Virus record (IMG/VR): IMGVR_UViG_3300041402_000761
Location: 1-37,032 of that record
Strand: one strand, 5' to 3'
Length of the DNA: 37,032 nucleotides
Origin: a virus
Part shown: one piece after another, positions 2,267 through 36,873 of the stretch
Position numbering within the stretch: the first letter of the stretch is position 1
How the letters are laid out: the number at the start of each line of letters is the position of its first letter
Notes under the pieces: model-generated
The model's input: only the letters and a program-made list of their open reading frames with translations
Databases searched by the model: none
Told to the model about the DNA's origin: nothing
Program-made: the position numbers and the translations under genes

Positions 2267-2494
2267 CTAAAAAACACGTCGAAACATGCCATGAAAAGCA
2301 CCCTCTCTACACCACGCAATATACTCACACTTTTTGTAATAGATTCTGCCGCCAGTACCGCGAATAAAAGGGAGGGGTTTTTCTTTCCTGTTGCGCATGT
2401 GATGGGCGCTTTGGTGAGAGCCAAGATATCCCAACTCCACCAGAGTTTTAGTGGTAAAAAACTCCGGCAACTCCGCGTGAAGTTTTGCTGACAT
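2267..2494 (-). CDS. AlpA/excisionase-like DNA-binding protein
   Basis: A 75-aa protein with the same architecture as the product of 1109-1339: LPEFFTTKTLVELGYLG, then SHQSAHHMRNRKEKPLPFIR, then a wing with RIYYKKCEYIAWCRE. This is the HTH_17/AlpA-type pattern in which the first helix pair contacts DNA. The nearest purine-rich site (AGAGGT) is about 20 bases before the ATG, so the start is less certain. Translation may be coupled to the gene upstream, whose frame overlaps the first 47 bases. Likely a regulator or replication accessory protein; not an excisionase in the strict sense because no integrase is seen. Confidence 0.55.
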   Translation of the reverse strand: MSAKLHAELPEFFTTKTLVELGYLGSHQSAHHMRNRKEKPLPFIRGTGGRIYYKKCEYIAWCREGAFHGMFRRVF

Positions 2495-2729
2495 GTCTAT
2501 GATTTTTCTTACCTCTATGTTTAATTCTTGGCCCCTTAGCGCGAGCGTCAGCCTCGCTCACAACAGTTACTATGCGCCGACGAACACCACTCTCTTCCTC
2601 ATCTGGATAAACACGCCTGTTAGATCCGGGCCAGAACGTTTCTCCCATTTCTATAAATTCTCTTAGTGGAAGAACCCCCCTTTTTTTCCTCATCAACCGA
2701 CCCCCCACCCTTGTTGTCTTAGCTTTCAT
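2448..2729 (-). CDS. Small basic protein, possible DNA-binding domain
   Basis: A 93-aa very basic protein. Its ATG lies inside the last codons of the helicase gene (AATGAAAGCTAA), so translation is probably coupled. An internal start (MRKKRGVLPL) is possible. The segment LPLREFIEMGETFWPGSNRRVY followed by RRRIVTVVSEADARAKG weakly resembles the AlpA-like layout of the next gene, with a helix pair, a short linker and a strand containing basic residues. The C terminus is a Lys/Arg/His-rich tail that overlaps the next gene by 47 bases, which makes this the less certain of the overlapping pair. Confidence 0.45.
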   Translation of the reverse strand: MKAKTTRVGGRLMRKKRGVLPLREFIEMGETFWPGSNRRVYPDEEESGVRRRIVTVVSEADARAKGPRIKHRGKKNHRHVSKTSRGVAGVFYH

Positions 2730-4650
2730 TTATCCGCACCCCACGCCACGCTTTAGTTTTCGCTAGCCAACACTCTGTAAAGAGCTTGTTTAGGTAAGCG
2801 GAAACCTCCAGCCTAGTGGGCCTTGTAAAATCGTTCGCATCACAAAACTCTTTTATGGCCGATTCCACCTTACCCTTTGGTGTAGACCACTCGGGGGCTA
2901 GCTCACACGCCTCCTCTAGAAACATCCCTATGGGGTCGTTCTCTTGCCTGTACAACGCCGTCTCTGCCCGTACGAATTCCGGGATCTGTAGCCCCTCCTT
3001 ACGATATCTCATAGCCCCTTCTACGACCCACTGCAAAATACCCTCCAATTCTTCGGCAAGCTCCTCTTGCAGCCCCTCCCTTAGCGGTCGCTCGTGTTCC
3101 TCTTTTGGTTCCCGCACAAAGCTCATGGGAAAGGGTATTATCACCGTCCTAGCCCATAGCGCACTGTCATCAGAGGGTGCCTTTGGCTTGTAGTTGGTCT
3201 GTAGAAATATGGTGTGGGTGGGGCGGATTTGCAAGTCGGTGTTAGAAAAGAGTCTTCTGCAAGTGATCGTGTCCCCACCCGAAAGAGTTTTTACTCGTGC
3301 CGAGTCTATGCGTCTTCCCTCGTTTATCTCACTGAACAGAGCTAGACGCACGCCCTGCAGGTTGGCTAGCTCGGGACTCGCAGAGCTGGACGACGGTAGG
3401 TTGCGCTGCATTAACAACATCTCTGGAGGGAAGACCCTCGCCATGCTACCTAGAACGCCCTGTATGAGGTTCATAAGCGTGCCCTTACCATTCCTACCCT
3501 CCTTGCCGTAAAGGTAGACCACAACGTGCTCTGAAGGCTCACCGATGGCAGCGTACCCTATGAGGATCTGCATAAAGTCCATCCACTCACAACTATGCCC
3601 CGAGATCTCCCATAGAAAAGCCTCAAATTTGGGGCACTCTGCTTCTGCATTATGCTCTACAGGGCATATAGATCTCACTAGATCACCCCTATCAGACGGT
3701 GCCAACTCCCCGGTGTCTAGGGAAATGGTGCCGTTTCGTACGGGAAGCCTCCCAGCGGTTGCGTCCCATGTACCGTCGAGCATAAGACTGTCAGCTACCA
3801 TCTCAAACGCGTGTCGCCTTCTCACTGGACACTGTAATTGGAAAGAACGCTTTTTAAGAGCCTCTACGAGCTTATCGTCTCCCCCCCCGTGTTGTGTGTG
3901 GGCTTCTTCTATATAAAGCCGTGGCACTGCCTTAAAATCCTCGTGGCGTCTATTGTTGACGTCTAACCCCCAACGATTATCAAGCCACACATAGAACGCC
4001 CCCACACGACCCTCTGTTGGATCAAATAAATACTTATCTTCAAAAAGCCCCACGAAAAGGTCGGCGTCCCCCTGCTTGTTTTTGATCAGGGCTGTGGTTA
4101 TCTCCGTCCCGCTATCTCCCCCGTATACAGCCTCACTTACCGAGCTACTCTGAAGGCGGGCCAGCTCCCGCCGTTGCTCCTCTATGCCCATAGTACCCAA
4201 ATAGAGGCCCATCTCCATGGTGTGCCTAGGCTCATCATCAGGGCCCGTGCACTCACGCGGTTTGAAGTAGAAATCACTCATGGTCAACGTATCGTCGTAA
4301 GCGGCAATGTCTTGCAGAAGATACGACAAGTTTGCTGCTATTGAGCCCTCGAGGATAGCCTCTCGGGTAGACAGGGAGTGTGAGGCGTCACTCGCATCTA
4401 AGGCGCGAGTTTCTATTTCGGTGAAAATGAACGCCTTACCAACCCCCTCATGCATAAAATGTTTCGCTAGCAACGCTGCAGCGGCGTCCCGTTTGTCATA
4501 TGCACACACGTAGCCCCGAACTTCTGCATCGTAGCGACATCCGAGCGATTTGAGTGCGCGCTTTGTCACCGCGGTGAGTTTGGTGCCTTTGTGTAAGAGT
4601 ATTTTGAGGGCGGTTTTAGGTTGCGTTTGCGGTTCTGTAGAGTCGGTCAT
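2719..4650 (-). CDS. SF3 replicative helicase (D5/P4-primase C-terminal type)
   Basis: A 643-aa protein. The start at 4650 has AAGGAA seven bases upstream. The C-terminal two thirds match the D5/P4-family superfamily 3 helicase: Walker A GKEGRNGKGTLMNL (about residue 380), Walker B region LALFSEINE, and motif C IFLQTNYKP with the sensor Asn. SGGDTITCRRLF between them is typical of this family. The middle (YLFDPTEGRVGAFYVWLDNRW) resembles the D5_N region. I see no archaeo-eukaryotic primase or TOPRIM motif, so priming may need the host. It should unwind DNA at the origin as a hexamer. The first about 75 residues form a separate domain (ALKILLHKGTKL ... CRYDAEVRGYVCA) that is duplicated as the gene just upstream. 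Confidence 0.85.
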   Translation of the reverse strand: MTDSTEPQTQPKTALKILLHKGTKLTAVTKRALKSLGCRYDAEVRGYVCAYDKRDAAAALLAKHFMHEGVGKAFIFTEIETRALDASDASHSLSTREAILEGSIAANLSYLLQDIAAYDDTLTMSDFYFKPRECTGPDDEPRHTMEMGLYLGTMGIEEQRRELARLQSSSVSEAVYGGDSGTEITTALIKNKQGDADLFVGLFEDKYLFDPTEGRVGAFYVWLDNRWGLDVNNRRHEDFKAVPRLYIEEAHTQHGGGDDKLVEALKKRSFQLQCPVRRRHAFEMVADSLMLDGTWDATAGRLPVRNGTISLDTGELAPSDRGDLVRSICPVEHNAEAECPKFEAFLWEISGHSCEWMDFMQILIGYAAIGEPSEHVVVYLYGKEGRNGKGTLMNLIQGVLGSMARVFPPEMLLMQRNLPSSSSASPELANLQGVRLALFSEINEGRRIDSARVKTLSGGDTITCRRLFSNTDLQIRPTHTIFLQTNYKPKAPSDDSALWARTVIIPFPMSFVREPKEEHERPLREGLQEELAEELEGILQWVVEGAMRYRKEGLQIPEFVRAETALYRQENDPIGMFLEEACELAPEWSTPKGKVESAIKEFCDANDFTRPTRLEVSAYLNKLFTECWLAKTKAWRGVRINES

Positions 4651-5756: not shown

Positions 5757-5818
5757 GGTCGTATACAGAATAACAGGTGACGCAGATCACCGCAAAGGAA
5801 AAGAAAAAGGAGACCAAA

Positions 5819-6346
5819 ATGGAACGTATAATCAAAGGTTTTAAAGAACAGAAATCAATGAGAGCCGTAATAGAATTTCTTAGAAACCCATACGAGGAGG
5901 AGTTAGACTACGACGACGATGGATTCAAGGGAGAGGAAGGGGACGACGACGATGGCTACCGCGGAGGAGAGAACGGCTATGACAATATAGATCAAAACAA
6001 CCTCGATTACATACGAGATTATTTACTAAATCCCGAGATGGTGGGATCTAAATATACAAACGACAAAGAATTTATTAAGGAGGTTTCAAAATTCTATCCC
6101 AACATCATCGGTTTTATAGCGTCAGAGATGTTATGTGACAGGGCGTTTGTTTTTGAACTCATAAAAATTAGTCCAATGTGTTTGGTTTTTGACGACAGAA
6201 ACGGAACGCAGTTGAACAGTTTTTTTGAATCAGGGGGGCTTTACGACGATCCAGAGATTAAAAAGGCTGCTTTACAATCGTGGGTTGCTAGTGGTGAGGA
6301 CGAAAAAGATTTTGAAGAGAAATTTTGGAAAAAATACATAGCATAA
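5819..6346 (+). CDS. Asp-rich protein with DUF4116-like repeats, paralogue A (175 aa)
   Basis: The start follows AAGGAGACCAAA. Residues 1-25 form a helical head (MERIIKGFKEQ). Residues about 30-60 are a strongly acidic, Gly-containing tract (DDDGFKGEEGDDDDGYRGG). Residues about 75-175 are helical, with NDKEFIKEVSKFYPNIIGFI followed by DRAFVFELIKISPMCLVFDD, a layout like the short helical repeats of DUF4116. It is the first gene of the rightward early operon and is nearly identical in plan to 6786-7313, from which it is separated by an ArdA-like gene. A dense acidic tract next to an antirestriction gene suggests a DNA-mimic or anti-defence role; this is inference. The function is unknown. Confidence 0.65.
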   Translation: MERIIKGFKEQKSMRAVIEFLRNPYEEELDYDDDGFKGEEGDDDDGYRGGENGYDNIDQNNLDYIRDYLLNPEMVGSKYTNDKEFIKEVSKFYPNIIGFIASEMLCDRAFVFELIKISPMCLVFDDRNGTQLNSFFESGGLYDDPEIKKAALQSWVASGEDEKDFEEKFWKKYIA

Positions 6347-6785: not shown

Positions 6786-7313
6786 ATGGAAAGAATTATC
6801 AAGGCATTTCAAGAACAAAACTCGATGGAAGAGGTGATAGAATTTCTTAAAAACCCCTACGAGGTACACCTATGCTACGGCGACGATGGATTCATGGGAG
6901 AGGAGGGAGACGACGACGACGACTACCGCGGGGGAGAGGATGGATGTGATAATATAGGCCCAGGTGGGCTTGGTTATATAAGAGATTATTTACTAAATCC
7001 CGAGATGGTGGGATCTAAACATACAAACGACAAAGAATTTATTAAGAAAGTGGCTAGATTCTATCCCAGCATCGTGGGTTTTGTAGGATCAGAGGTGCTA
7101 GGAGATAAGGAATTTGTTTTGGAACTCATAAAAATTAATCCAAAGTGTTTGGTATTTGAGGATTGCACCGGATCACTGTTGCATACAGCTTTTTATTCAA
7201 GCGGATTTTACAAAGATCCAGAGATTAAAAAAGCTGCTTTACAGTCTTGGGTGTCTAGTGGTAAGAATGAGGAAGATTTTGAAGAGGAGTTTTGGGGAAA
7301 ATACATAGCATAA
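6786..7313 (+). CDS. Asp-rich protein with DUF4116-like repeats, paralogue B (175 aa)
   Basis: Same length and architecture as the product of 5819-6346: a MERIIKAFQEQ head, an acidic tract (GEEGDDDDDYRGGEDG) and the helical repeat region (NDKEFIKKVARFYPSIVGFV, then DKEFVLELIKINPKCLVFED). The central segment RDYLLNPEMVGSK is identical in both, and the DNA just after both genes is also similar (TACATAGCATAAACAAA), so the duplication included the 3' flank. AAGTAGGA precedes the ATG. The best-conserved parts are the helical repeats and the acidic character rather than any catalytic motif, which points to a binding role. Confidence 0.65.
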   Translation: MERIIKAFQEQNSMEEVIEFLKNPYEVHLCYGDDGFMGEEGDDDDDYRGGEDGCDNIGPGGLGYIRDYLLNPEMVGSKHTNDKEFIKKVARFYPSIVGFVGSEVLGDKEFVLELIKINPKCLVFEDCTGSLLHTAFYSSGFYKDPEIKKAALQSWVSSGKNEEDFEEEFWGKYIA

Positions 7314-25726: not shown

Positions 25727-26563
25727 TTATGAGTGGGTTGTTTGCAGGTTGCCCATAAACGCATCGTTTAAAATACGGGAGACATATGCGTGTTTCCATC
25801 CAACAGAGGATAATTGGTGCAGTGGGTCAACAGCTCCACCAGATCCAAGAGGTTCTACATAAAATTCTCCTGTAGAGCTTCTTAGGTTTACAACCCCGTA
25901 CGCCTCCTGCCCAACAACGATGTTGTTGTAAACAATAGGGTCTGAGTCGGTAAAGCTTCCGATAGATGTGTATAGCCATCTTATGTTGCCAGTGCTTCCC
26001 CACTCAAAATCTAAAACAGTGTTTAGAGACGCATAGTCGGAAGAACTAACAAAGTTGGCCACAGCCTCTAGGTCATCTAATAGATCTGTATGAATAAAAC
26101 CATAAAATGCAGGTCTTTGTGGAACTGTCGCATAGGCATCGCGCCCCTTGATCGTTTTAGTGATCATCTTGGCGTCGTTCCCAAGCAAAAGCTTGACTAG
26201 GCCATCTGTATCTGATTTAGTCATCTCTGTGGGAGTCTGTCCGTTCGAGCCGTTCGCAGCTTGAAGTACGGAGCTTGTTGATGCCAGTACGTCTCTAGTT
26301 ATCTCGTCAAGCGTTTCTCCAAAATTTTGAGCTAAAAGCCGTGTTGTTTCGTTTAGAACGGTATCCTCTACCGTAAGCTGAACTTGATCGGTGAGAATTG
26401 CGTAGTTTCCGTAAAAATCAACCCGCGCTTTAATAAGCTCAGATGTAATCGCGGTAGCTGGGGGAACAATTCCATCTACGATTGGGATTGTTACCGTTTC
26501 TAGTTTTAGATACCGACGATAAACTACTGTGTCGCCAACTTTTGAGGGTAATACCCTCTGCTG
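25727..26563 (-). CDS. Major capsid protein, exon 2 (278 codons)
   Basis: This is the larger part of the coat gene. Reading continues in frame well upstream of the first Met at 26224: QQRVLPSKVGDTVVYRRY, TIPIVDGIVPPATAI, YAILTDQVQLTVEDTVLNE, LLAQNFGETLDEITRDVL, then AYATVPQRPAFYGFIHTD and SGGAVDPLHQLSSVGWKHAY. These are the blocks of the P22/N4-gp56-like coat family in their normal order. The frame cannot start by itself: it has no start codon near 26563, and the family's N terminus is found at 27402-27506. Joined, the product is 313 aa. The splice site at 26563/26564 was chosen for frame and alignment; a site 3 bases away is equally in frame. Confidence 0.8.
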   Translation of the reverse strand, partial: QQRVLPSKVGDTVVYRRYLKLETVTIPIVDGIVPPATAITSELIKARVDFYGNYAILTDQVQLTVEDTVLNETTRLLAQNFGETLDEITRDVLASTSSVLQAANGSNGQTPTEMTKSDTDGLVKLLLGNDAKMITKTIKGRDAYATVPQRPAFYGFIHTDLLDDLEAVANFVSSSDYASLNTVLDFEWGSTGNIRWLYTSIGSFTDSDPIVYNNIVVGQEAYGVVNLRSSTGEFYVEPLGSGGAVDPLHQLSSVGWKHAYVSRILNDAFMGNLQTTHS

Positions 26564-27401
26564 CTATACCTTATTGCTCCACATTTCTGTGGGCACTTTA
26601 CGTTCCCGTAAAGAGGAGACTATATCTTCGGGGGGCTAACCCGCGGTTCCGTGCGTTTTTCGTCGTTAGATTTTATTTTGCTAGGGTGTAAATAAGCAGA
26701 AATACTATTCAAGAAAACCTCGATGTCCTTTTTTCGTAGCCTGATGTTCGGTCCATCTATACGCCACTGAAGCTTGAACTTTTTCTGTAAAATCCTTGTA
26801 AAAACACCTTTTTCTACAGAATTTAAGTGCGGCAGTCTCAAGCAAGGAATGCGTGTCTCTTCCTCAAAACGCCCCTTGTCTTGAAAAAGAATAGCCAACC
26901 CCCGAAGAGAGATGCACTTAACAGAATGCTCATCTAAGGATTTTCTATCCTCATGATACATGTGCTCGTGAAGCTTCGAGTACATAGGATGAGTTTTGGT
27001 TGAAATAGTTACATAATCCGTATGGTAAGATGCCCTCTCAAACGCATTATTAAGCATTATATGACCCGTAGCGTAGGACGATCTAGATGGTCTTTGTTTC
27101 AATTCTACGGTTTTGAACTCCTTTATCTCGCATTTTGTAAGATAAGATAAGGTTTTCTGTTTGTACAATGCATATTCCAACTCGAAAGTTTTCTTTTCTT
27201 TCATTTTTAGGTAATAGGATGTTTTGGTTCCTGCCTCTTTACAAAGGTCTGCATCTCCAAGTAGCATCCCTACTACCGTCCCTTTAAAATCTAATCTACT
27301 ACTAAACATAGTCGTTAAACTTCGCCTTAGCTTTAGCTAGGTGTTGCCCTTTTTCGGGTTTTCACCTAATTGGAAACCGTTTCACTTCGCCCAGTGTGTT
27401 A
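26564..27401 (-). ncRNA. Group I intron in the major capsid gene (838 nt)
   Basis: Read on the - strand. P1: exon end UUCGCU (27402-27407) pairs with GGCGAA (27386-27391), with the required U.G pair at the splice site. The R element GTTTAACGACTA (about 27309-27320) and S element AAGATATAGTC (26618-26628) match the group I core consensus and form P7 (ACTA with TAGT). P-like AATTAGGTGAAA precedes a GGGCAACACC segment. Behind S stand two hairpins: CTTTACG-GGAA-CGTAAAG (26596-26613) and CCACA-GAAA-TGTGG (26579-26592). The intron ends in G. CTG just before the guide can pair with CAG opening exon 2 (P10). An in-frame TAA at its first bases stops unspliced translation at codon 36. Confidence 0.88.
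26620..27309 (-). CDS. LAGLIDADG homing endonuclease inside the intron (229 aa)
   Basis: A first LAGLIDADG helix lies at about residues 9-21 (GTVVGMLLGDADL), giving the catalytic Asp. A second, weaker copy is at about 151-163 (LRGLAILFQDKGRF), so this looks like a single-chain two-motif enzyme. Between and after them are TGHIMLNNAFERASYH and basic strand regions expected for DNA contact. The ATG overlaps the R element of the intron core and the TAG stop lies within the S element, so the gene exactly fills the P8 loop. No Shine-Dalgarno precedes the ATG. The enzyme should cut intronless coat alleles and so spread the intron; a maturase role is possible. The second motif lacks one acidic residue (QDKG). 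Confidence 0.82.
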   Translation of the reverse strand: MFSSRLDFKGTVVGMLLGDADLCKEAGTKTSYYLKMKEKKTFELEYALYKQKTLSYLTKCEIKEFKTVELKQRPSRSSYATGHIMLNNAFERASYHTDYVTISTKTHPMYSKLHEHMYHEDRKSLDEHSVKCISLRGLAILFQDKGRFEEETRIPCLRLPHLNSVEKGVFTRILQKKFKLQWRIDGPNIRLRKKDIEVFLNSISAYLHPSKIKSNDEKRTEPRVSPPKI

Positions 27402-27506
27402 AGCGAATTTTGTGTACACCATCGGCGGGTACGCGGTTACTAGGATTAACCTATCGTAATAATCGCGAACCGCAGGTTTTAGTGTTTTGTTATCTGTAAT
27501 TGTCAT
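27402..27506 (-). CDS. Major capsid protein, exon 1 (35 codons)
   Basis: AAAAGGAGCTC lies before the ATG at 27506. The 35 residues (MTITDNKTLKPAVRDYYDRL, then ILVTAYPPMVYTKFA) match the N-terminal helix and first strand of N4-gp56/P22-like coat proteins, where a Y-YDR/K-x-L-L motif is followed by V-x-x-KFGQ. The natural continuation QQRVLP lies at the head of exon 2. The frame stops at TAA directly after codon 35, which is the first three bases of the intron. The intron therefore interrupts the family's conserved FGQ-x-R site. Confidence 0.82.
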
Positions 27507-31225: not shown

Positions 31226-32596
31226 ATGGCTGTAGCCATCGAGGTTGGAGGGGACGGCATTATTACGCTTCCAAACTACACCCCGCGCCCCTACCAGCTT
31301 CCTTTCCACAAAGCCATGGACAGTGGCTGTACTCGTTTTTGTCTTGTCTGGCATAGAAGAGCTGGCAAAGAGATGGCTTGTTGGAATGAGATGGTCAAGC
31401 GTGCTTTCTGGCACCGTGTTGGTTCGTACGTGTACTTTTTCCCGACTTCAACCCTCGGCAGGAGAATAATCTGGGAGGGGATGGACAAAAAAGGGAAGCG
31501 TTTCGTTGACTATGTCCCGAGAGATCTTATTTCAGGACAGCCAAACCAAGTCGAGATGAGAATCCGTCTTATAAACGGAAGCTCTATCCAGATCATGGGC
31601 ACAAACCAAATTCTAAACGTTGGAATCAACCCTATTGGGTGTGTGTTTTCTGAATATTCACTAGAAAATCCTATGTGTTGGGATTTTATCCGTCCTATAT
31701 TACGAGAGAACAGGGGCTGGGCTGTATTTAATTTCACCCCAAGAGGAAAGAACCACGCCTACGACCTTCACAGGATGGCCAGAGAGAACGATTCGTGGTT
31801 TCATCAGGTTTCTACTAGGCTAGATACTGTTGATGGCACTGGAGAGCCTATAATCACCGAGGAGGACATTGGGGAGGAACGTCGCGAGGGAATGAGCGAA
31901 CACCTCATACAGCAGGAATACTACTGCAATTTCGAGCTAGGAGCAGAGGGTGCTTACTACTCTAGGTACATGAATTCCGCCTTTTTAGAGGGACGAATCA
32001 CCAATGTTCCGCACGATCCCCTTGCCCAAGTACACACGGCATGGGACATTGGTGTTAACGATGAAACTGTGGTTTTGTTTTTTCAGCAGTGCGGGAAAGA
32101 AATTCACATTATCGACATGTATAAAAATCAAAACATAGGAATGCCCGACTACATAGCTGAGGTAAGAAAAAGAAGAGACGAAAACGGGTGGATTTTAGGA
32201 GAACACTTTGCCCCTCATGACATACGAGTACGTGAATGGGGTAGTGGGGCTCGTGGAAGATTGGAGATGGCAGAGGATCTTGGGTTTAAATTTATAGTAA
32301 CCCCAAACATGTTGGTCATAGATGGAATAGAAATGGCGCGTGGAATTTTTAATCGGGTTTGGATAGACGGTACTAAATGCGCATATCTAGTACGAGCTCT
32401 AGAAAGCTACCACAAAGAATTCATCGAATCAAAAAATGTTTACGGAAACGCCCCAGTTAAAGACTGGTCTTCCCATTCCGCTGACGCATTCAGGATGTTG
32501 GCAATCATGGTTTCCTCTAACCTATCTGGCGATCGCATGAGCGAAGAAGAGGCTGAAAATCTAGAAAACAAATACCATAAAAAATGGTTTGCTTAA
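31226..32596 (+). CDS. Terminase large subunit (456 aa)
   Basis: N-terminal ATPase: adenine-binding YTPRPYQLPFHKA, Walker A-like VWHRRAGKEMA (residues about 41-51, the HRRAGK variant of many podovirus terminases), Walker B GCVFSEYSLENP and coupling NFTPRGKNHAYDL. C-terminal RNase H-like nuclease: TAWDIGVNDETVVLFF with the metal-binding Asp at about 271, then a late Asp in KDWSSHSADAFRML. All parts needed for translocation and cutting are present. The size is normal. No clear AGGAG precedes the ATG (only GGAAAAAAAAG). It is the sole virion gene on the + strand, split from the leftward portal operon and from the leftward small terminase. Confidence 0.88.
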   Translation: MAVAIEVGGDGIITLPNYTPRPYQLPFHKAMDSGCTRFCLVWHRRAGKEMACWNEMVKRAFWHRVGSYVYFFPTSTLGRRIIWEGMDKKGKRFVDYVPRDLISGQPNQVEMRIRLINGSSIQIMGTNQILNVGINPIGCVFSEYSLENPMCWDFIRPILRENRGWAVFNFTPRGKNHAYDLHRMARENDSWFHQVSTRLDTVDGTGEPIITEEDIGEERREGMSEHLIQQEYYCNFELGAEGAYYSRYMNSAFLEGRITNVPHDPLAQVHTAWDIGVNDETVVLFFQQCGKEIHIIDMYKNQNIGMPDYIAEVRKRRDENGWILGEHFAPHDIRVREWGSGARGRLEMAEDLGFKFIVTPNMLVIDGIEMARGIFNRVWIDGTKCAYLVRALESYHKEFIESKNVYGNAPVKDWSSHSADAFRMLAIMVSSNLSGDRMSEEEAENLENKYHKKWFA

Positions 32597-35492: not shown

Positions 35493-35640
35493 AGAGTCGG
35501 CGGCTTCCGCTCAGGATCGTGAGCTTCCGCTCAACTAGCCACATCGTGTGGCTCCCTTCGCTGCGCTTTTCTTGTTTCAACGAGTCTGCTTGAACTTATC
35601 CGCTTAAAAGCAAACAGGGTTCAAGTCTTACGTCCTCTCC
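35493..35640 (-). ncRNA. Candidate omega-RNA (reRNA) at the 3' end of tnpB
   Basis: In IS200/IS605 elements the guide RNA scaffold spans the tnpB 3' end and the right end of the element. Here the segment after the tnpB stop folds into successive hairpins: AGCCACA-TCG/CGA-TGTGGCT (35537-35553), GAGC-GGAA-GCTC and GCGG-AAG-CCGC, with the repeated GAGCGGAAGC. It ends near GCCGACTC (35494-35501). The guide would be the next bases toward lower coordinates. Boundaries are inferred. Confidence 0.55.
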
Positions 35641-36873
35641 ACAAACTTCGCCTCTTTTAGAGACTCCCACCCTCTCGGCGGTACGTAAAATCATCCTAGC
35701 TGCCGAAATATCTCGATCATGCACCTGAAAACATTTGGGACACTCCCACTCTCTTTGGTCGAGCGTTAGCTTGGTATGTTCTTCGCAAATTGGACATACC
35801 CCTGTCGTTCTTTCAAATCGTGGGCATACTATCAAATCTCTGCCATACCACTTGGCTTTATACTCGAGATATGTTCGAAATTTCCTAAAACCCTGACTTA
35901 AGATAGAGCGATTTTTCGCTTTCTCTCCCCTTCGAGTTTTAAAAAAAGTGTGTTGCTCTCTCTTTCCTTCGTCCCTAACCGCTCCCGCTTTGGTTGAATT
36001 TTCAACCTTAACGACCTTTTTGGGGTCTAGGATCTTTCGGCTGTTCTTGGTTTTCACCATAGAACTCACAGATAAATCCTCGATCGCTATTACTTGGTTT
36101 TCGCGTACGATCGAAGTACTTAATTTGTGAAGAAAATCTTCGCGCTTGTTAGCTATTCGTCGGTGAGAGCGAGCAACACGCAACCTCTTTTTATTTCTAT
36201 TCTTTGAACCTTTTTTGCTTCTGCTTAAGCTCTTTTGGTTGTATTTAAGCTTGTTAGCTATTTTTACAAAATCCGATAGCCTCTTCTTTTCCCCGTCTGA
36301 AGTAACTACGGAGTCTTTACAACCTAAATCTATTCCAATTTTTTGACTTGTGAGTTTTGGGGTCACCACTTGATTAGAGTCAAATTGCAAAGAAACGTAA
36401 AAGTCTCCGCAACAATCTTTGCTAACGGTTGCTGAATTTGGGTATGTATCTACCCTAGAAGTCCATCTAATCTTGCAAGCTCCAAGTTTTGGTAATTTCA
36501 AAACTTTTCCATCAACAAAAGCTCTTTTTTGCCGTTTGTCCATCGTATATCTGCAAGAAGCCCTATACAAACGACGCTTCCTTTTTGGATACTTAGCATT
36601 CTTTTTGAAGAAAGCCTTAAATCCATTATCTAGATCTTCGAGAGCTTCACTTAAAACTGTAGCCGACGCTTCTTTTAGCCAAGAAATCTTTTTTTTTTCC
36701 TGAGTAAGTTGGTTTGACAAACCAAAACGGGAGATTGTTTGTTTGTCATTCTGGTATAATTCGCTTTTAGTTTTTAGTCCCCAATTATACACGTAGCGAG
36801 AATGACCAAATTCTTTGCTTAGATGTTTTCTTTGCTTTAGAGTAGGGTAAAATCTAAATTTTGCAGCTTTCAT
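35596..36873 (-). CDS. tnpB: TnpB, RNA-guided nuclease of IS200/IS605 type (425 aa)
   Basis: The N-terminal KAAKFRFYPTLKQRKHLSKEFGHSRYVYNWGL is the standard opening of the family. The RuvC-like nuclease is intact: Asp in IGIDLGCKDSVVTSDG (about residue 180), Glu in VIAIEDLSVSSMVK (about 265), a zinc finger CPIC-x16-CPKC, and the third acidic residue in HDRDISAARMIL. The length is usual for TnpB (about 400 aa). No TnpA (Y1 transposase) gene exists in the window, so the element cannot move by itself. TnpB with its omega-RNA cuts DNA next to a TAM and promotes element retention. No Shine-Dalgarno is seen before the ATG, common in these elements. Confidence 0.85.
   Translation of the reverse strand: MKAAKFRFYPTLKQRKHLSKEFGHSRYVYNWGLKTKSELYQNDKQTISRFGLSNQLTQEKKKISWLKEASATVLSEALEDLDNGFKAFFKKNAKYPKRKRRLYRASCRYTMDKRQKRAFVDGKVLKLPKLGACKIRWTSRVDTYPNSATVSKDCCGDFYVSLQFDSNQVVTPKLTSQKIGIDLGCKDSVVTSDGEKKRLSDFVKIANKLKYNQKSLSRSKKGSKNRNKKRLRVARSHRRIANKREDFLHKLSTSIVRENQVIAIEDLSVSSMVKTKNSRKILDPKKVVKVENSTKAGAVRDEGKREQHTFFKTRRGEKAKNRSILSQGFRKFRTYLEYKAKWYGRDLIVCPRFERTTGVCPICEEHTKLTLDQREWECPKCFQVHDRDISAARMILRTAERVGVSKRGEVCGEDVRLEPCLLLSG

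Follow-up and report, generated by a model that had tools for sequence, protein, structure and literature searches.

A probable group I intron in the major capsid gene of an uncultured phage, and a capsid gene that looks like a favored home for such introns

The DNA that we analyzed, IMG/VR record IMGVR_UViG_3300041402_000761 (37,032 bases, called the window here), contains a major capsid protein (MCP) gene that, from its sequence, is very probably interrupted after codon 35 by a mobile 838-nt group I intron and spliced to give a 313-aa capsid protein. The virion protein that this phage needs most thus appears, on the same reading, to depend on RNA splicing. A first-pass annotation had proposed a group I intron in this gene, and the proposal is borne out by a gapless exon junction, compensatory changes in a homologous intron, empty sites in related phages, and weak, well-placed Rfam matches.

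The two exons (Table 1) join exactly and in frame at ...GGTATAG^CAG, with a G as the last base of the intron. The boundaries first suggested (exon 1 ending at 27402, exon 2 starting at 26563, an 838-nt insert and a 313-aa product) all stood. By tblastn searches of 50,697 phage records, we found that residues 6-313 of the joined protein align with uninterrupted coat genes (best E-value 4e-38), and the junction is gapless in alignments with eight homologues, giving an end-to-end match to coat proteins. The profile of PHROG 1357 (major head protein) spans residues 3-311 of the joined protein (8.9e-38), and the coat protein matches Pfam PF25209 with 32.7 bits against a cut-off of 27, so that the match to MCP profiles (PHROG 1357, Phage_capsid_4) is full-length. 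The neighbors of the gene are a P22-type portal gene, a scaffold-like ORF and an SU10-type adaptor gene. When exon 1 is read on without splicing, translation stops immediately, because the first intron codon is TAA. We found no second coat gene in the 37-kb window. Because of the reverse order of the frames, the stop at the first intron codon and the lack of a second MCP gene in the window, an intact MCP requires the insert to be removed. Elsewhere in the window, the gene for the terminase large subunit (PHROG 2; 31226-32596, + strand) lies on the strand opposite to the portal and capsid genes, an IS605 OrfB/TnpB-like protein (Pfam OrfB_IS605, Cas12f1-like_TNB) is encoded at 35596-36873, and two similar adjoining ORFs at 5777-6346 and 6786-7313 (MERIIKGFKEQKSM... 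and MERIIKAFQEQNSM...) are probably a tandem duplication.

Table 1. Coordinates of the capsid gene exons, the intron and its parts in the window, and of two portal-gene introns in related phages.
Feature	Position	Strand	Details and evidence
Exon 1, major capsid gene	27402..27506	-	35 codons, MTITDNKTLKPAVRDYYDRLILVTAYPPMVYTKFA; aligned with uninterrupted homologues
Exon 2, major capsid gene	25727..26563	-	278 codons + stop, from QQRVLPSK...; Pfam Phage_capsid_4
Group I intron, 838 nt, phase 0, IA-like	26564..27401	-	Rfam pieces; homologous L112 intron with compensatory changes; family model R1
P1	27386..27407	-	exon TTCGCT (27407-27402) with internal guide GGCGAA (27391-27386), U.G at splice site
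P3, 5' strand, CGGUUUC	27373..27379	-	partner GGAACCG at 26650-26644; fold, pair count
P4 and P5	27338..27368	-	P4: 27368-27363 with 27343-27338; P5: CCC at 27358 with GGG at 27349
P7, 5' strand, GACUA (end of R element)	27309..27313	-	last base overlapped by intron ORF ATG
P7, 3' strand, UAGUC (S element)	26622-26618	-	contains ORF stop codon
P9	26613-26607 with 26602-26596	-	Rfam piece, L112 pair count, model R1
P9.1 hairpin, CCACA-GAAA-UGUGG	26579..26592	-	followed by intron end ...GGTATAG at 26564
Intron ORF, 229 aa, LAGLIDADG_2 (I-SceI-like)	26620..27309	-	Pfam 5e-15, PHROG 2.4e-5; sense strand
Second-set intron at portal gene start, L099	9648-9766	-	R1
Second-set intron at portal gene start, L098	2779-2901	+	R1

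All of the group I core features that had been read from the letters are present: a P1 helix with a U.G pair formed by the internal guide, the R element (GTTTAACGACTA), the S element (AAGATATAGTC), the P9 and P9.1 hairpins, and the terminal G. The P5 and P6 helices are short. A P10 pairing is possible between the CTG that directly precedes the guide and the CAG at the start of exon 2. The Rfam group I search that had been suggested as a check succeeded in part. Model RF00028 matched a 1.3-kb region in two pieces flanking the intron ORF (22.2 and 21.9 bits; E = 0.004 and 0.005), and these were the only Rfam matches with E ≤ 1 in the whole 37-kb window (E = 0.12 and 0.15 at that search size), but both scores are below the curated 50-bit gathering score. 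We attribute the low score partly to the splitting of the core by a 690-nt ORF and to the generality of the model, and it does not contradict the fold. At the curated cut-offs Rfam returned nothing in the window or in any of nine relatives, so the absence of a match at those cut-offs is uninformative.

The first-pass annotation overlooked that most of the intron is filled by a LAGLIDADG ORF (Table 1). This ORF is inserted between P7[5'] and P3[3'], the interval in which the extra sequence of IA introns (the P7.1/P7.2 region) would sit; its ATG overlaps P7[5'], and at the other end its last codons cover P3[3'] and P8 before the TAG in P7[3']. The position of the ORF and the T4-like R and S elements, rather than a subgroup model, point tentatively to subgroup IA.

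Searches of viral contigs with exon 2 or the intron ORF returned no close relatives, and exact patterns taken from the window intron had no matches, and relatives were gathered through their portal genes and through intron motifs of the relatives themselves. Among them, the contig IMGVR_UViG_3300037722_000725 (L112), whose MCP is 58-69% identical to the window MCP depending on the exon, has an intron of 947 nt whose nucleotide position and phase are those of the window intron. Its ORF has 34% identity to the window ORF over 224 amino acids by BLASTP (E = 2e-38), or 39% in a MAFFT alignment, and RF00028 pieces flank the ORF just as they do in the window. The conserved core from P3 to P9, including P7 with its R and S elements, can be traced through both introns. 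Across nine helices with 46 core pairs, 12 pairs have two-sided compensatory changes, two have one-sided G-U changes, and none is broken, a count that rests on two sequences and on helices picked with both in view. For example, P1 is TTTGCT:GGCAAA in L112 and TTCGCT:GGCGAA in the window, and three pairs of P4/P5 are changed on both sides. Uninterrupted versions of the site also exist. The MCPs of L150 and L178 (about 60% identical) read TKFAQKRMLP straight through where the window has TKFA^QQRVLP, and L080 and L104 carry TTCGCTCAAAAGAGG without interruption. By their sequences, these four alleles are the empty sites that would be expected of a mobile intron. Interruptions at site 35 also occur in L025, L105 and L110 (the last assigned by hand).

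In the LAGLIDADG family the Asp before the Gly is catalytic. The window ORF retains the first motif as GMLLGD, but its second motif is QDKG, compared to QDDG in L112 and MDDG in I-SceI, so that one predicted catalytic Asp is absent and the window enzyme is predicted to be impaired. The L112 ORF matches I-SceI over residues 10-198 (E = 5e-11) with QDDG lying beneath MDDG, whereas the same search found neither I-SceI nor any other solved relative for the window ORF.

This loss bears on the strongest of the alternatives, which is that the insert is a former group I intron that no longer splices, in a contig from a dead or decaying phage. The ORF without the predicted catalytic Asp, and without a solved relative where the L112 ORF has one, would fit such decay. 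However, the core helices are all intact, with 12 covarying pairs and none broken, both exons are open and well aligned, and an RBS-like AAGGAG precedes exon 1. A decayed ORF inside an intact ribozyme is moreover what is expected at a late stage of the homing cycle, and we consider loss of splicing improbable. It is less probable still that there is no splicing and that the parts are translated separately, with exon 2 alone or the protein starting at 26224 serving as a working coat protein. The ATG-started ORF at 26224 does exist, as had been reported, but its product is missing 148 residues at the N-terminal end, a stretch that every homologue conserves, Pfam searches did not recognize it, and the closest relatives have one continuous gene. 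An assembly chimera or an unrelated insertion is conceivable in principle for a single metagenomic contig, but is extremely unlikely when the independent contig L112 has an insertion at the same nucleotide position with an ORF that is 34-39% identical, and when further contigs are interrupted at this site. Equally implausible is a group II intron or an intein, even though LAGLIDADG ORFs are also known from inteins and a few group II introns (as cited in PMC3706429): the stop at the first intron codon and the out-of-frame ORF exclude an intein, and the covarying core, with its P3-P9 helices, a U at the 5' splice site and a G at the 3' end, is that of a group I intron.

We therefore return to a group I intron, which we infer is spliced in the cell. 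In the capsid mRNA the intron would fold around P3-P9, its internal guide would pair with the end of exon 1 (UUCGCU.GGCGAA), and guanosine would attack after the final U of exon 1, which would then be joined to the CAG of exon 2. The I-SceI-like LAGLIDADG ORF, the homologue at the same site in L112 and the empty site elsewhere (that is, an encoded homing endonuclease together with intron-less alleles) suggest that the intron is a mobile element. Because the window ORF lacks a predicted catalytic Asp, the intron has probably lost some or all of its capacity for homing and may persist in the window because it splices. Site 35 would be only one of many, in a capsid gene that seems to be a hotspot colonized repeatedly by group I introns.

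Among 23 portal-selected loci of this P22-portal podovirus-like group that have a full-length MCP gene, the gene is continuous in 15 and interrupted in eight (L012, L025, L033, L036, L040, L041, L042 and L044), and the eight interruptions are not one shared insertion. Two further loci, L004 and L005, appeared as split genes in tblastn searches, but we rejected them: what interrupts their capsid genes is no intron but some 70-80 codons inserted in frame, perhaps an additional surface domain. In a scan of 2.9 million viral contigs, a 20-base motif taken from the L012 and L025 introns, GACTTGGAACTCCTNGCTGC, was found in 47 contigs, and in all 47 it lies inside the MCP gene or directly beside an MCP piece at the end of the locus. 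Among 84,980 genomes of bacteria and archaea, its only match is in a Bacteroidales MAG contig that again carries this same MCP gene. This contig (L115, PLLX01000034.1) is a phage contig of the same group, and its binning with a Bacteroidales genome may hint at the host.

A second, independent motif, GTCTGAACTCTATGGNNACATAGAGAGG, which comes from the P9 region, was found in 73 of the same 2.9 million contigs: 60 times in or at the edge of this MCP gene, four times at a portal gene, and nine times elsewhere. From their translated flanks, two of those nine sites look like another type of coat gene, and others look like genes for anaerobic ribonucleotide reductase, terminase and tape-measure protein. 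In two larger phages (L119 and L121) the P9 motif is upstream of a seemingly different, putatively SU10-like, coat gene. We also aligned 26 3' domains from the second intron set, in which 14 of 16 predicted pairs have compensatory changes. The covariance model built from this domain (R1) has 95 matches in our loci at E-values up to 0.1, with 81 strictly within the MCP span, 10 at the edges of truncated or neighboring MCP genes, two at portal genes and two in Pseudomonas phage loci; because the loci were fetched through portal genes or motifs, these counts are no gauge of how frequent such introns are in other genes, for which the motif scans are fairer. In the window, R1 scores best, though weakly (16.9 bits, E = 0.085), at the 3' end of the intron, which makes the window intron no more than a distant member of this set. 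Strict exclusivity to the MCP gene was rejected, since portal genes (L098, L099 and the four contigs in 73) and a few other genes carry such introns. In L098, an apparent intein-like stretch (CIVGDTLVKTG...) is also present in the terminase large-subunit ORF at 81-1784.

To assign splice sites in the relatives, we required only that the exon end in U, that a guide helix form, that the last intron base be G and that the open frame align to the MCP. Intron ends of AACAGA or AATAGA received a small bonus in this procedure, so that feature is not independent support. The spacing between the guide and the 20-base motif was not built in; of 37 non-redundant introns, 30 have a spacing of exactly 24 nt and two others have one of 29 nt. 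In total we list 65 non-redundant introns, and those with a standard 3' end fall at about 29 nominal combinations of position and phase. Because several assignments are uncertain (L107 at position 45, L089, L095, and the neighboring pairs 212/213 and 275/276), we claim only at least 20 positions. Up to four introns occur in one gene (L124, with five MCP pieces). Removal of the inferred introns restores a gapless match to the continuous genes of close relatives, both for L102 and L106 against L022 (MCPs 91-93% identical) and for L033 against L046.

LAGLIDADG-type motifs recur in these introns, mostly in antisense ORFs. Of the 65 introns, 26 have such a motif in an ORF of at least 80 codons, compared to seven of 1370 ORFs in a control set. 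In 17 of the 26 the ORF is antisense to the capsid gene, in seven it is sense (including the window and L112), and in two there are both. Loci with LAGLIDADG-ORF introns, mainly antisense, include L025, L036, L040, L041, L074, L080, L086, L088, L111 and L112. With the gene in antisense, ribosomes would perhaps be kept away from the ribozyme as it folds, and the endonuclease would no longer be tied to very strong late transcription.

Taken together, these introns look like group I introns that favor the MCP gene and are apparently undescribed. We think it likely that in uncultured P22-portal podovirus-like phages the MCP gene is the preferred home of group I introns, with related small introns at 20 or more positions and as many as four per gene, many of them with antisense LAGLIDADG genes and with the guide re-fitted to each site, and only rarely in other genes. 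Every MCP intron would tax or gate virion production, and strong pressure to splice well is expected because the capsid protein is the product that the phage needs most. Natural alleles with and without an intron at the same nucleotide (L022 versus L102 and L106, and L046 versus L033) make intron gain, guide re-targeting and the cost of splicing testable. A practical consequence is that annotation wrongly presents the capsid genes of this group as fragments, and that surveys keyed to an intact MCP miss such phages.

Phage group IA introns of the T4 td type have R and S elements, a U.G pair in P1, and extra sequence between P7[5'] and P3[3']. The window intron shares the R and S elements and the U.G pair, and its ORF lies in the same interval, but it differs in its host gene and in having an I-SceI-like LAGLIDADG gene where td has a GIY-YIG gene. 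Its ORF belongs by Pfam match to the I-SceI family (LAGLIDADG_2), although its second motif is QDKG and not DDG. The Pseudomonas phages HHBS10_2 (L011) and SPA01 (L010) also have a LAGLIDADG_2 ORF beside a group I-like 3' domain (R1 scores of 49 and 25.5 bits), but, unlike the window intron, these are outside capsid genes. In HHBS10_2 (2384-4167), the LAGLIDADG_2 ORF splits the gene for the small subunit of ribonucleotide reductase, which is annotated as separate genes.

The novelty that the first-pass annotation implied for an intron in a coat gene was overstated, because such introns are already known. For an 819-bp intron in the capsid gene gp13 of mycobacteriophage LittleE, RT-PCR and N-terminal sequencing of the protein proved that splicing takes place (PMC3706429), and the same paper cites a capsid-gene intron in the lactococcal phage Tuc2009. 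Compared by description, the LittleE and window introns are both of group I type and in MCP genes, with a LAGLIDADG-like ORF, an exon 1 that ends in U and an intron that ends in G. The coat proteins and hosts differ, and the LittleE ORF is antisense whereas the window ORF is sense and overlaps the ribozyme core. The LittleE orientation is the majority arrangement among the relatives of the window, and the excess of antisense ORFs, recurring in LittleE, is a concrete question for study. MCP introns are also known in the Delta and Zeta groups of crAss-like phages, where one Zeta MCP is in five fragments (PMC7886860). These too are group I introns, but they occur together with inteins over many genes of large genomes, whereas the phages of the window's group are small and have P22-type portals, and their known introns are overwhelmingly in the MCP gene. 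In Bastillevirinae, introns are mostly in DNA polymerase genes and some terminase genes (PMC11878797). We found nothing on the present phage group in open-access papers (the subscription literature was outside our scope), and a blastn search with the intron of a relative gave no matches in phage records, as did another in plasmids. What may be new is how strongly such introns concentrate in a single gene within one group of phages. If this is true, capsid production would be a dedicated intron niche comparable to fungal cox1 or rDNA.
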